This document shows, one piece after another, positions 37,490-42,890 of a stretch of 47,180 nucleotides of DNA (positions are counted from its first letter, which is position 1; every line of letters begins with the position of its first letter). The stretch is taken from the NCBI GenBank assembly GCA_947385775.1, contig CANDMI010000024.1, positions 1-47,180 on the forward strand. The letters are read 5' to 3'. The notes beneath the pieces are model-generated. The model made no database searches. It was not told the origin of the DNA and saw only the letters and a program-made list of their open reading frames with translations. This DNA comes from an uncultured Eubacterium sp. Its GTDB lineage: Bacteria; Bacillota; Clostridia; Lachnospirales; Lachnospiraceae. Both the position numbers and the translations under genes were made by a program.

Positions 37490-38650
37490 ATGAAAATCAG
37501 AAAACAGAAAACGAACTCTGTCCAACAGCCGCAAAAATGGCCCAAAATTTTAACGGCGGCTATGGCGCTGCTTTTTATCCTGCATTCTCCGACTGCATCC
37601 ACACCCGCCGCGGCTCCCCAAAAAAATCCGTCTGACGCGGCCTTTCTGAAAAAAATCATAAAGGAACAGGAGGCATATGGCGTGGAAGGCATATCGGATA
37701 TGGATAACGCGCGCCAGTATGGATGGGAAAAAGACAAAAACGGTGAATTAAGGCTCTGTCGAATTTACTGGGAATATACGCCTATGCATGGCGCCATATC
37801 TTTAAACGGATTTCCAAAGCTAAAGTATCTGCACTGCCATAATTTATACCGCAAAGACGGAATCACAAGTCTGGACGTAAGCGAAAATAAAAATCTAGTG
37901 GAATTAGATTGCGCGGGAAATCAGTTAAAAAGTCTGGACGTAAGTAAAAACCGAAAGCTAAAAAAGCTTGTATGCTCTGATAACCTGCTAAAAGACCTGG
38001 ATGTCCGTAAAAACAAAAAACTGACAGAGCTTAATTGCTCTGAAAATAAGCTGACCCGCGTGGATATAAGCAAAAACAAGGCGTTGCTGGAATTTGACTG
38101 TTATAAAAACAACATTACATCGCTGGACGTTTCTAAAAATTCAAAACTCCGATACCTGAATTGCCGGGGAAATCATTTAAAAAGTCTGGATGTTCGAAAA
38201 AACAAAAAGCTAGACAGCCTGGTCTGCGCCTGGAACCAGCTAGAGGCATTGGATCTGTCGAAAAATAAGAAGCTAGACAGCTTAGCCTGCCATGATAATA
38301 AATTAAAACGCCTGGATATAAGCAAAAATCAAAAGCTTTCGAATTTACAATGCTCAAATAACGGCCTTCAAGCTTTCGATGTAAGCAAAAATCCAAAGCT
38401 GGAAACCCTAAATTGCTCCAAGAACGCCCTGACAAGCCTGGATATAAGCAAAAATCCAAAGCTGGAAACTCTGGATTGCTCGAAGAATAACCTGGCAAGC
38501 CTGGATATCCGTATGAATCGGAACTTAACCTATCTGAATTGTAAAAAGAACAGCCTGACAAGCCTGGACGCAAGCAATTCCCCATCATCCACGACGCTGG
38601 TCTGCGATGATGGCGTCGATGTTATTTTCCCCCAGCCGCTTTTGGACTGA
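37490..38650 (+). CDS. Secreted cysteine-containing leucine-rich-repeat protein
   Basis: This 386-residue protein has a basic N-terminus and signal peptide (about 1-45), a linker domain (50-105) and then about twelve repeats of exactly 21 residues up to residue 375. The consensus is LxxLxCSxNxLxSLDVSKNxK. The repeats are LRR-like beta-solenoid units known from surface proteins that bind proteins or glycans. There is no LPXTG anchor, membrane tail or cell-wall-binding domain, so it is likely released or loosely held. Each repeat has one cysteine, giving a regular ladder. RBS AAAGGGGG precedes the ATG. Its partner is unknown. Confidence 0.9.
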   Translation: MKIRKQKTNSVQQPQKWPKILTAAMALLFILHSPTASTPAAAPQKNPSDAAFLKKIIKEQEAYGVEGISDMDNARQYGWEKDKNGELRLCRIYWEYTPMHGAISLNGFPKLKYLHCHNLYRKDGITSLDVSENKNLVELDCAGNQLKSLDVSKNRKLKKLVCSDNLLKDLDVRKNKKLTELNCSENKLTRVDISKNKALLEFDCYKNNITSLDVSKNSKLRYLNCRGNHLKSLDVRKNKKLDSLVCAWNQLEALDLSKNKKLDSLACHDNKLKRLDISKNQKLSNLQCSNNGLQAFDVSKNPKLETLNCSKNALTSLDISKNPKLETLDCSKNNLASLDIRMNRNLTYLNCKKNSLTSLDASNSPSSTTLVCDDGVDVIFPQPLLD

Positions 38651-39524: not shown

Positions 39525-39551
39525 AACAAGCAGGAAGTTTCAAATCAAAGA

Positions 39552-39601
39552 CGGGCATACTGCAAACCAGATTAAAAATGGTGTGCGGTATGCCCGGTTT
39601 T
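39552..39601 (+). terminator. Intrinsic terminator after DUF2752 gene
   Basis: CGGGCATAC-t-GCA pairs with TGC-g-GTATGCCCG (39552-39563 with 39585-39596) around a loop, followed by GTTTTG. It separates the plus-strand pair from the convergent three-gene cassette. Confidence 0.7.
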
Positions 39602-39663
39602 GATCGATACGGCATATCATTCCACTAGAATAATTTAAAACAAACACGCTCTAGTTATATCTT

Positions 39664-40446
39664 TTATAATTTCGTGTTATATGTAATTGGGGGATGCAAC
39701 GAATCCCAGGCTTTTTCCAATTCCGCTTTATTCTGATCATACCACCTTTTTATGTCACGCTGAAAATCAGGCGGCATCCTCTCTCCGCTTCCAGTATAAA
39801 GCTCTCCTGTTTTCAATTCAAAAACAGCTTGATATTCAGAACAGGATACATGAAAATGAGGTGGATGATACTCAAATTCTTTCCCGCGAATTTCTATTAA
39901 ATATTTTTTATCAACCATCCATTTTTTTATTTCCGGCGAACGCTCCCACCATTTTATAGAATAGATGTTATCAAGCTCTATCTCATATCTTTCTTCATTC
40001 ATAAAAGCCGTTAGGCGCAGGCAATCCATTTTGTAAACGGGATGCTCAAAAGAAAGAATGGCGCCTTCGTGTTTACACGCTTCTGTAAAACAATTTTGCG
40101 CCGCGAACTTTTCTCTATATTCTTCATCAAATTTGTATTCAAATGAATCTTCGAGATTATTTTCATCTTCAGACCATATGACCGGCTTGCGATACAATTT
40201 TACTAAAGATAATTTTAATTTTGTCAGCGCCGGATTCCGTTCATTTTTGTGCGGCTGTATTTTTCCCAGGTTACAATCTTTGCATACTTCACAACTCCAC
40301 AGGGAATCTTTTTTCCAGATAACGCTTCCTTCCTCCGCTTCTATTTTATTTAAAACAGGAAGCGTATATGCCCTTAGAGAATCGAAAAACTCAGTTATAT
40401 GATTAAATTGCCCCCTTAATGAATATTCATTTACAAAATAATTCAT
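39664..40446 (-). CDS. Cassette protein with DUF4160-like C-terminus
   Basis: I do not recognise this 260-residue protein as a whole. The N-terminal part (NEYSLRGQF, then a helical segment to about residue 40) leads to a CxxCxxC cluster (C52, C55, C58). The C-terminal 70 residues resemble DUF4160, with a histidine motif H194-P-P-H-F-H199-V and then AVFELKTGELYTG and a helical WYDQNKAELEKAW end. It has no signal peptide or membrane helix. It is the third gene of the AT-rich cassette, 26 bases after the ATPase, with an AAGGAAG ribosome binding site. It could be an effector or a regulator of the system. Confidence 0.75.
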   Translation of the reverse strand: MNYFVNEYSLRGQFNHITEFFDSLRAYTLPVLNKIEAEEGSVIWKKDSLWSCEVCKDCNLGKIQPHKNERNPALTKLKLSLVKLYRKPVIWSEDENNLEDSFEYKFDEEYREKFAAQNCFTEACKHEGAILSFEHPVYKMDCLRLTAFMNEERYEIELDNIYSIKWWERSPEIKKWMVDKKYLIEIRGKEFEYHPPHFHVSCSEYQAVFELKTGELYTGSGERMPPDFQRDIKRWYDQNKAELEKAWDSLHPPITYNTKL

Positions 40447-40472
40447 GTTCTCTCATCTTCCTTATGGTATTT

Positions 40473-41624
40473 CTATAATCCAAGCATCCGATCCAGATCA
40501 ATATCAAACTGATCAAACAGATCGTTTATATCCAATTCGTTATTGGTCCCTATAACTTTCCCAAATTCACCAAATTTTATAGGATTGCATTGCGTATTAT
40601 AAGTTTTGTCAAGCACGAAGAAATTGACTTTTATATAATCTTCTTTCATGGTTTTGTTAGAAATCCCTACCCTTATCCCATTAAAAATATGATCGCTGTG
40701 TGTTTCCACAAAAAGCTGACGACCTGAGCTGCTGACAAAATATAAAAATTCACATAACCTGGACTGGGCTTTCGGATGGAGGTGGATTTCCGGATTTTCT
40801 ATTATAATCACATCATCTATATCAGAAGCCAGGCATGTAATTAAAATCGTTATTAAATAACTGATTCCAGATCCCACATTCACCGGCCTGCTATACATTA
40901 CTTCGGAATTCAAATTTGCCGGATTATTGTTATATTTTACCTGTAAGTAATTTGTTTTTTTTATATCTTTCACTAAAAGATTCGCGCCTATGATATAATT
41001 CAGCCAATAATTCACTTGTTCGTACAGACTGTTTGTTAAATTCTCTTTATTTTTCACTAATTTTTCATCTACAGGATCCGACTCATGATCCATCAGGTAA
41101 GAAAACGAATGTTCACCGTCAATTCCTAAATTATCATCATTCCCGAAATATTTTTCGTAAATATCCTGCGGGCCCAATCTGTTGCAGGATAAATAATGAA
41201 AACCATACTCCCAGTTAAGATGCGTCGCTTCAACTTCATTGTCAAGAACGCAACCATCGAAAATATCCATATCAACCACATCGTCTAAATCACTCCATTT
41301 TGTTGATACCTTTACATCGCAAAGTTTTTTCGAATTTTCGCTAAATTCAACCCATGCAGGCTCTTTATATCCGTTCTTCCATATCCAGATTTTAATATTA
41401 GAATCCTGCATAGAATAATTATGCGCTTCCCTATATTCCCCCAGCGATATTAACGGGCCATTTAAGCCGCTTTCATCGATACCATTTTGCGCATCTAAAA
41501 GCAACGCCTGCAAAAATGTTGATTTTCCTGCCGAATTTGTCCCTACAATTAAATTCAGCCTGCTGCATTCAATCGTTAAATCTTTAATTGATTTTAATGC
41601 TCTTATCCGCACTTTCGTAATCAT
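40473..41624 (-). CDS. AAA ATPase of the DUF3696/OLD-like type
   Basis: This 383-residue protein is an ABC/RecF-type ATPase. Walker A is GTNSAGKST (K34), the signature-like segment is NVGSGISYLITIL, and Walker B is DDVIIIENPEIHLHP near residue 270, followed by VETHSDHIFNGIR. These segments match the DUF3696 family, related to OLD nucleases, although no Toprim domain is apparent. The ATG overlaps the stop of the DUF262 gene (ATGA at 41621-41624), so the two are coupled. ATPases of this group act in phage defence systems such as Gabija and others; activity here is inference. Confidence 0.88.
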   Translation of the reverse strand: MITKVRIRALKSIKDLTIECSRLNLIVGTNSAGKSTFLQALLLDAQNGIDESGLNGPLISLGEYREAHNYSMQDSNIKIWIWKNGYKEPAWVEFSENSKKLCDVKVSTKWSDLDDVVDMDIFDGCVLDNEVEATHLNWEYGFHYLSCNRLGPQDIYEKYFGNDDNLGIDGEHSFSYLMDHESDPVDEKLVKNKENLTNSLYEQVNYWLNYIIGANLLVKDIKKTNYLQVKYNNNPANLNSEVMYSRPVNVGSGISYLITILITCLASDIDDVIIIENPEIHLHPKAQSRLCEFLYFVSSSGRQLFVETHSDHIFNGIRVGISNKTMKEDYIKVNFFVLDKTYNTQCNPIKFGEFGKVIGTNNELDINDLFDQFDIDLDRMLGL

Positions 41625-42757
41625 GTTTTAATCTCCTTAATCACTAAGTTCATCATTCGGAAACGTCCCTCAACGTTTGATACGCTATCCCGTCCATTTC
41701 CAATATAACCCGAAAAATCTTTACTATTAATCGTATTATATAGTTTATCCTTTAAAACGTCCTTTATTCCTTCTTTTTGCGTGGTTATATTGGTCATAAG
41801 AAATAACGTTGTTTCAAATAAATTCATATTTATCGGATGCGTCGCCGTTTTTCTAAACGCTAATTTTCCCAAATAAAAATACGAATTCTCCAAAGCGCTT
41901 TCCGTCTGTTTTTTTAGCTTCATTAAATCCATATCTGTACACGAATTTAAATATTTCAATGAAATTTCAATTAAATAATCAACATCTCCATTGTATTGAT
42001 AATCCTTTCCCCCAACAGAAAGCTTCCTATTAAGGTACAGATAGAACGCAAAAAAGCGTGTCAATAAATAAGCTCCTTTCATACGAAAATCTTTTTTGGC
42101 CTCAATGCGGGCAGCTTTTTGAAAACTCTCACCTTCTGTTATCTCATGGATCATTTCCATTCCTTTTCCCTGATACAGCGCATTCCGAATTTCCTGTTTG
42201 TTGAGCTTAGTCCCTCCACGATTTACCCGGTCAAAAATATCAAACAAAATTTTATCCGGCGTTGGCGGCAGAATAACATGAGCATATACCTGATAATCTT
42301 CCAATTGGGATTGATATATTCCCAATTCATCTTCAAGATCTTTGAATCTTTTCGTATTCAAAAAATCAAGGATCTTAAGATTTTTCATAGAAAACTCATT
42401 GTTTAAATACTCAAACAGTGCGGATAAGCGTTGTTTTCCATCTACAACCACATATTTCGAATTGTCTAATTGCTTAAAATAAAATATCGGCAATGGAAGG
42501 CCCATCAAAATACTTTCAATCAATTCACATTTTTGCTTTTCATTCCAAACTCTTTTTCTTTGAAATGAAACATCAAGAATTAGTTTTCCCTGCTTATACT
42601 TTCTTAGAAGTTCATATATGGAAAAATCTTTTTTCGTAACGCGCACTTCTTTAAAAACGTAAGAATTGGCAATTCCTTCGTACTCCATATTTTCTAATTC
42701 ATCCGCATTTTCTAATTCAATCTCATCTTCTGATTTTTTTTCTTCAAATTTTTCCAT
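41621..42757 (-). CDS. DUF262 (ParB/GmrSD N-terminal-like) protein
   Basis: This 378-residue protein has the DUF262 signatures: FQRKRVWNEKQKCELIESI (65-83), VVVDGKQRLSALF (103-115) and FDRVNRGGTKLNKQEIRNAL (175-194). This domain has a ParB/sulfiredoxin-like fold and is the N-terminal part of GmrSD type IV restriction enzymes, where it binds or hydrolyses nucleotides. The remainder is helical, and no GmrD-like HNH domain is visible. It is the first gene of the AT-rich cassette. AAGGTGAAAAT leads to the ATG. Only a weak promoter is seen between 42758 and 42855. Confidence 0.88.
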   Translation of the reverse strand: MEKFEEKKSEDEIELENADELENMEYEGIANSYVFKEVRVTKKDFSIYELLRKYKQGKLILDVSFQRKRVWNEKQKCELIESILMGLPLPIFYFKQLDNSKYVVVDGKQRLSALFEYLNNEFSMKNLKILDFLNTKRFKDLEDELGIYQSQLEDYQVYAHVILPPTPDKILFDIFDRVNRGGTKLNKQEIRNALYQGKGMEMIHEITEGESFQKAARIEAKKDFRMKGAYLLTRFFAFYLYLNRKLSVGGKDYQYNGDVDYLIEISLKYLNSCTDMDLMKLKKQTESALENSYFYLGKLAFRKTATHPINMNLFETTLFLMTNITTQKEGIKDVLKDKLYNTINSKDFSGYIGNGRDSVSNVEGRFRMMNLVIKEIKT

Positions 42758-42858: not shown

Positions 42859-42890
42859 AAAGGCAGTGCCGCTTTAGGCCCTGCCTTTCT
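42859..42890. terminator. Terminator after FIST-GGDEF gene
   Basis: AAAGGCAG (42861-42868) and CTGCCTTT (42883-42890) form a stem with T runs on the minus strand, ending transcription of the GGDEF gene before the cassette. The symmetric A and T runs may let it work in both directions. Confidence 0.75.

Follow-up and report, generated by a model that had tools for sequence, protein, structure and literature searches.

A Menshen-type (NsnABC) operon with a predicted DUF4160 effector in an uncultured Eubacterium sp.

A 47,180-nucleotide stretch of DNA from an uncultured Eubacterium sp. (contig CANDMI010000024.1 of assembly GCA_947385775.1, referred to in full as the window) contains a cassette of three minus-strand genes at positions 39664-42757. 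This cassette is likely, with some room for error, to be a Menshen-type (NsnABC) anti-phage operon whose third protein, NsnC, carries a DUF4160 toxin as its effector and halts infection by an abortive mechanism. The reading draws on features visible in the sequence: the three protein families and their order, the modular build of NsnC, the conservation of the DUF4160 motif, and the failure to detect a DUF2442-like frame nearby. The features discussed below are as follows.

41621..42757, minus strand: nsnA, 378 amino acids, DUF262/GmrSD_N protein
40473..41624, minus strand: nsnB, 383 amino acids, AAA_15/OLD-like ATPase
39664..40446, minus strand: nsnC, 260 amino acids, predicted effector with the shared N-terminal domain and a DUF4160 C-terminus
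39952..40446, minus strand: NsnC N-terminal domain, approximately residues 1-165, delimited by alignments of NsnC proteins with unrelated C-termini
39706..39870, minus strand: DUF4160 toxin-like domain, residues 193-247, PF13711 match
39850..39867, minus strand: HPPHFH motif, residues 194-199, from alignments with stand-alone DUF4160 proteins
39544..39604, strand unassigned: terminator-like inverted repeat downstream of nsnC, 26-nucleotide arms, 85% complementary
42859..42888, strand unassigned: terminator-like inverted repeat between nsnA and the upstream FIST-GGDEF gene, 12-nucleotide arms, 92% complementary

Identity and conservation of the operon

The genes are tightly packed, as had been described: nsnA and nsnB overlap by 4 bases, and nsnB and nsnC are separated by 26. 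The proteins were compared with PADLOC 2.0.0 models and with Pfam, for which families were listed at E up to 1. NsnA matches PDLC03877 (1.1e-93) over residues 6-376 of 378, NsnB matches PDLC03878 (6.9e-87) over residues 1-381 of 383 and profile positions 1-343 of 345, and NsnC, third in the A-B-C order, matches PDLC03891 (5e-19) over residues 1-167 only. These PADLOC families are taken here to be the Menshen genes, and Menshen was reportedly first reported by Millman et al. 2022. The original prediction that no named system has this trio is therefore overturned, since all three proteins match NsnA, NsnB and NsnC and the gene order recurs widely. The agreement with Menshen extends to all three families, the gene order, the tight packing and the N-terminal domain of NsnC, so that the operon as such matches a named system exactly. 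The effector half of NsnC does not: the window protein ends in DUF4160, and the PADLOC NsnC models match the intact proteins of this type (5/5) only within residues 1-185. Among other NsnC proteins, a full-length PADLOC match was obtained for 8/9 and 3/3 in two sets, the exception being the YoeB-type L111. That the cassette acts against phage and that its third protein is the effector, previously conjectures, now have support from family membership at the level of sequence.

The DUF262 assignment of NsnA holds (PF03235, 8.4e-24), and alignment places a VDGKQR motif at residues 105-110. This is close to the nucleoside triphosphate (NTP)-binding motif of GmrS, given in a review as (I/V)DGQQR, and according to the same review mutation or deletion of the DUF262 gene abolishes Menshen defence (PMC10952713). 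The DUF1524/HNH nuclease half was not listed for NsnA, NsnB or NsnC at the Pfam threshold. The ATPase had been called DUF3696-type, a label that has to be replaced: NsnB matches AAA_15/AAA_21 (AAA_15 3.3e-25), and DUF3696 was not listed at E up to 1. Its proposed Walker and NVGxGxS pattern is intact in the alignment, with Walker A GTNSAGKST, the NVGSGIS signature, Walker B ENPEIHLHP and the ETHSDH switch. The nearest solved chains by sequence are AriA of PARIS (1.3e-5) and an OLD enzyme (2.5e-4). The same review pairs the DUF262 gene of Menshen with a predicted OLD nuclease and ties an OLD-family Toprim domain to one component (PMC10952713). Within the Pfam listing, no Toprim domain appears for any of the three window proteins and no nuclease domain for NsnA or NsnB, the family name of DUF262 itself aside. 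Because the window NsnB matches the PADLOC NsnB model end to end, that model holds no further domain.

Seven loci fetched from other genomes (L037 and L052-L057) show the A-B-C order; six of them had been chosen through an NsnC match, and the L054 copy is broken in nsnC. A scan of species genomes with an NsnB alignment returned at least 564 relatives, from which the best 80 were taken. An NsnB frame is present in 79 of these best 80 loci, NsnA adjoins it in 77/79, and 76/80 have a same-strand frame directly downstream. The exceptions are L108 (no NsnB frame), L116 (NsnB frame beginning at the contig end) and L143. Co-occurrence of NsnA and NsnB is thus borne out, which contradicts a chance neighbourhood; since the loci were picked by NsnB similarity, the counts speak for conservation of the operon and not for its frequency.

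NsnB was found at E 1e-25 in 6/13 genomes of the genus, that of the window included, and each of the six has at least one place with adjacent NsnA. At E 1e-30, it was found in 9/391 genomes of the class, three of which (the window's own, G762 and G873) show adjacent NsnA in the short loci returned. Across 398 genomes of the phylum, an NsnA-like protein was found at 26 places, of which only the window and L037 have NsnB next to it, so the DUF262 protein takes part in other pairings too. A viral scan with the single NsnA protein gave no match, and NsnC had no match in plasmids and phages at E 1e-3.

Several other arrangements of these families were observed. At L040:4255-6010 (G000:C18), in the window's own genome, a HEPN (RiboL-PSP / MAE_28990) protein is encoded after an NsnA-like DUF262 protein, and this HEPN protein has no PADLOC family listed at E 1e-4. 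The two-gene DUF262 and HEPN cassette recurs in L041, L042, L043, L044, L046 and L047, in fetched regions lacking a strong NsnB match; HEPN was thus seen in L040 and in 6/7 further neighbours scanned, L048 being the miss. Another genome of the genus has a row of three genes (L280:2771-7113, G969:C1) for an NsnA-like protein, an NsnB-like ATPase shortened to 267 amino acids and a PglZ-domain protein of 839 amino acids. The viral scan with the NsnB alignment yielded 23 contigs (L230-L252) encoding NsnB relatives at 25-32% identity.

The DUF4160 terminus of NsnC

NsnC proteins share an N-terminal domain of approximately 150 residues, which starts with an LNExSLxGQF-like motif in alignments and for which no Pfam family was listed at E up to 1. 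The AlphaFold2 model of the window protein has a mean predicted local distance difference test score (pLDDT) of 84.5 and a predicted template modelling score (pTM) of 0.67. In the alignment made for structure prediction, about 5 residues per stand-alone row are misplaced at the N-terminus. The CxxCxxC cluster noted earlier is present in the window protein as C52, C55 and C58. Of these three, C55 alone has its position conserved throughout the five intact NsnC proteins of the DUF4160 type, which makes a conserved metal site there unlikely.

Behind this constant domain, the C-termini differ. Of the 80 genome loci, 72 received a class or the label "single". When only the final 80 residues were clustered, eight classes of 28, 12, 9, 6, 6, 4, 4 and 3 members resulted, plus singles. 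An earlier clustering on 115 residues, whose class counts exclude L077, L095 and L153 as duplicates of L055, L057 and the window, had given nine classes; the 80-residue recheck dissolved a two-member class and kept the other eight. In the 115-residue clustering, the N-terminal part of L087, a truncated frame, had drawn it into the largest class. The DUF4160 class was unchanged in each clustering. Pfam matches above cut-off were obtained for 3/10 class representatives: Gp49, of RelE/HigB type (L074, 3e-11), YoeB (L111, 5e-11) and DUF4160 (L071). The other seven gave nothing above the Pfam cut-off. Unmatched classes that recur are exemplified by L093, L126, L138 and L124, with 28, 12, 4 and 3 members, and such classes may be further effectors.

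DUF4160 is probably the warhead of the window NsnC, as judged from its sequence and by analogy, because its position in the protein, two experimental reports and the conservation of its PPHxH motif and tryptophan agree. The domain, as proposed in the original prediction, lies at residues 193-247 (PF13711, 1.9e-10, above cut-off), in the position that recognised toxin domains (Gp49, YoeB) hold in other NsnC proteins. The HPPHFHV histidine motif was confirmed as HPPHFH at residues 194-199, with PPHxH invariant across the window protein and stand-alone DUF4160 proteins. P195, P196, H197, H199 and W247 do not vary among 30 aligned sequences (27 stand-alone, 3 NsnC), nor in a second alignment of 8 sequences that includes two further NsnC proteins. 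The NCBIfam model toxin_DhiT matches NsnC at 1.8e-5 and 25 bits, far below its cut-off of 100. According to one report, the DUF4160 protein DhiT acts as a growth inhibitor in both Dickeya and E. coli, and its DUF2442 partner neutralises it (PMC8198452). A second report describes a Thermus DUF4160/DUF2442 pair that stabilises plasmids; when the DUF2442 gene was absent from the plasmid, no transformants were obtained (PMC12724237). Caution is called for on one point: the same Thermus report records no effect in E. coli (PMC12724237).

The window protein shares the DUF4160 domain, with its invariant PPHxH and W, with these DhiTA or DUF4160-DUF2442 type II toxin-antitoxin systems (PMC8198452 and PMC12724237). 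It differs from them in that DUF4160 is fused behind the NsnC N-terminal domain and in that no antitoxin frame was found with it. No DUF2442-like frame was detected in the cassette loci (0/6, window included) even at E up to 10, with the search of L052 limited by a contig that stops 274 bases past nsnC. The same profile found a DUF2442-like match in 25/30 stand-alone genome loci and 35/37 viral loci, where matches were counted anywhere in the locus and the profile had been built from seven seeds taken from these stand-alone loci and lying inside the 30.

The window's own genome also encodes a DhiTA-like pair, in which a stand-alone DUF4160 protein is followed by a DUF2442-HTH fusion (L070:7587-8410, G000:C51), and has two more DUF4160 places. 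Among 37 viral DUF4160 loci, none is NsnC-like, and 36 frames have 71-108 residues. L195, a viral frame of 371 amino acids, was considered as NsnC-like and rejected as a start-codon artefact: it ends in the same domain as the 84-amino-acid L205 and L207.

Six DUF4160-type NsnC proteins were identified: those of the window, L052, L053, L054 (broken), L071 and L072. The type occurs in 4/200 genomes of the family, the window's own included and one copy broken, and accounts for 2 of the 72 labelled genome-scan loci (from the best 80 of at least 564). The broken copy belongs to a decayed cassette (L054:4489-6720, G451:C29), with two stops in nsnC, an nsnB frame of 248 amino acids and an open nsnA. 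At eight other NsnB places in the genus, other NsnC types were present at five and none was recognised at three; an HPPHFH-type motif was found in 0/8 of these regions.

The history of the effector was approached through an NsnB tree of 87 rows, 75 of them labelled with nine labels from the 115-residue clustering. It was built by a quick method with Shimodaira-Hasegawa-like approximate likelihood ratio test (SH-aLRT) support and no bootstrap. All six DUF4160 systems cluster together with support 100. Their group falls inside a larger one of 14, likewise with support 100, whose other members are seven Gp49-type systems and an unlabelled one. The simplest reading is one replacement of a Gp49-type toxin by DUF4160, a direction inferred from an unrooted tree. 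Gp49/RelE-type Menshen systems of related Clostridia, such as L074, are thus the closest NsnB relatives outside the DUF4160 group, but their C-terminal domain is PF05973 Gp49. The tree labels need 13 changes, against a minimum of 8 and 43 for shuffled labels; consequently, the effector end mostly moves together with NsnB but has switched several times. One example is the pair L117 (YoeB) and L120 (another class), whose NsnB proteins are very close but whose NsnC C-termini differ. Effector exchange in NsnC is therefore real but not rampant.

Proposed mechanism and alternatives

A mechanism can be proposed in which NsnA, whose DUF262 domain is an NTPase in relatives, would respond to a protein or DNA state associated with phage. 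NsnB, an ATPase for which no Toprim is listed, would form a scaffold like AriA of PARIS, so that NsnA and NsnB together would make up a sensing scaffold. The N-terminal domain of NsnC would dock on NsnA/NsnB and hold the DUF4160 domain idle. Infection would release or activate NsnC, and the DUF4160 toxin would stop host growth; its target may be translation or RNA, as would be expected of the RelE-type toxins that occupy this position in other NsnC proteins. In this arrangement, NsnA/NsnB and the N-terminal domain fused to the toxin would stand in for the DUF2442 antitoxin. The scaffold and docking steps are proposed because the NsnB motifs are intact, the nearest solved relatives of NsnB are AriA and an OLD enzyme, and AriA keeps a toxin sequestered and releases it once a phage protein is sensed (PMC11455837). 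The likeness to PARIS (AriA/AriB) lies in AriA being the nearest solved chain to NsnB, and a toxin-holding ATPase is the proposed analogy (PMC11455837). The window proteins differ from PARIS in having no listed Toprim and in including an extra DUF262 protein.

The toxin could be placed elsewhere in the complex. The DUF4160 domain might have been co-opted as a non-toxic module, such as a sensor or docking part, with NsnA or NsnB doing the killing. The NsnC domain indeed lacks profile positions 1-12 and has diverged from three stand-alone DUF4160 proteins (27-34% identity), while NsnB is related to the OLD-type ATPases and the review names a predicted OLD nuclease in Menshen (PMC10952713). However, DUF4160 sits where other NsnC proteins have the Gp49 and YoeB toxins, its PPHxH and W are invariant, and killing by NsnA or NsnB is opposed by the Pfam listing, in which neither protein has a nuclease domain beyond what the name of DUF262 implies. 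On balance, such a co-option is unlikely. Somewhat less likely again is a GmrSD-like type IV restriction system, with NsnA as the sensor of modified phage DNA and direct cleavage of that DNA by the complex. NsnA has the GmrS domain DUF262 (PF03235, 8.4e-24) and the VDGKQR motif, but the three proteins have no DUF1524/HNH match at E up to 1, and the C-termini of NsnC, rather than being a constant nuclease, are of several classes that include two known toxin families.

That the three genes are merely a chance or non-defensive neighbourhood is very improbable. Although the six Pfam-scanned neighbours include no defence-type family, the gene order is conserved in dozens of loci from organisms of several phyla, and named defence models are matched. 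The Menshen reading with DUF4160 as effector is accordingly preferred.

Genomic setting and significance

The cassette is AT-richer than its surroundings, as had been noted, with a guanine-plus-cytosine (GC) content of 34.8% vs 47.6% in the rest of the window. This is the lowest value among 441 same-length windows stepped along the sequence, and windows not overlapping the cassette have at least 42.8%. Four intact relatives likewise have a cassette GC below that of their flanks: 39.6 vs 51.4% in L071, 34.4 vs 49.9% in L072, 29.4 vs 33.7% in L052 and 28.8 vs 33.5% in L053. Such AT-richness is what would be expected of a mobile defence cassette. The two bounding terminators of the original prediction are plausible: inverted repeats lie on both sides, but neither was reported by a simple terminator scan, which gave one other site, inside nsnC, where shuffled sequence averages 2.9.

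The neighbouring genes are unrelated, as stated before, with leucine-rich repeat, DUF4234 and DUF2752 proteins on one side and FIST-GGDEF, aldo/keto reductase and cupin proteins on the other (six proteins, Pfam). A 386-amino-acid protein with many leucine-rich repeats is encoded at 37490-38650 of the window. No empty insertion site could be defined from 12 other genomes of the genus because the flanking genes are poorly conserved there, with matches to FIST in 1/12, to DUF2752 in 0/12 and to the aldo/keto reductase in 7/12.

Since Menshen is already known, the present result adds to that system and does not amount to finding a new one. A literature search found no report linking DUF4160 to Menshen, with the likeliest source, Li et al. 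2025 (gkaf357), outside its coverage. Domain polymorphism in Menshen is already in print, by the title of that paper, and a DUF4160 effector may already be listed there. It is tentatively suggested, as a possibility that may well prove wrong, that Menshen captured DUF4160 once, in a Clostridia lineage with RelE-type (Gp49) nearest relatives, and that NsnA/NsnB control it without the DUF2442 antitoxin. If true, the effector class would be an undescribed one, with a defence domain fused to the toxin taking over the role of its toxin-antitoxin partner, and both the activity of DUF4160 and the release step of Menshen could be tested by effector swapping. More generally, a defence system and toxin-antitoxin modules are seen to share putative warheads, with Gp49-type, YoeB-type, DUF4160 and unassigned domains standing behind a constant NsnC N-terminus. 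Swapping these ends would be a clean experiment on how Menshen keeps its effector in check and sets it off, and the cassette offers a natural context in which the target of the DUF4160 toxin may be found.

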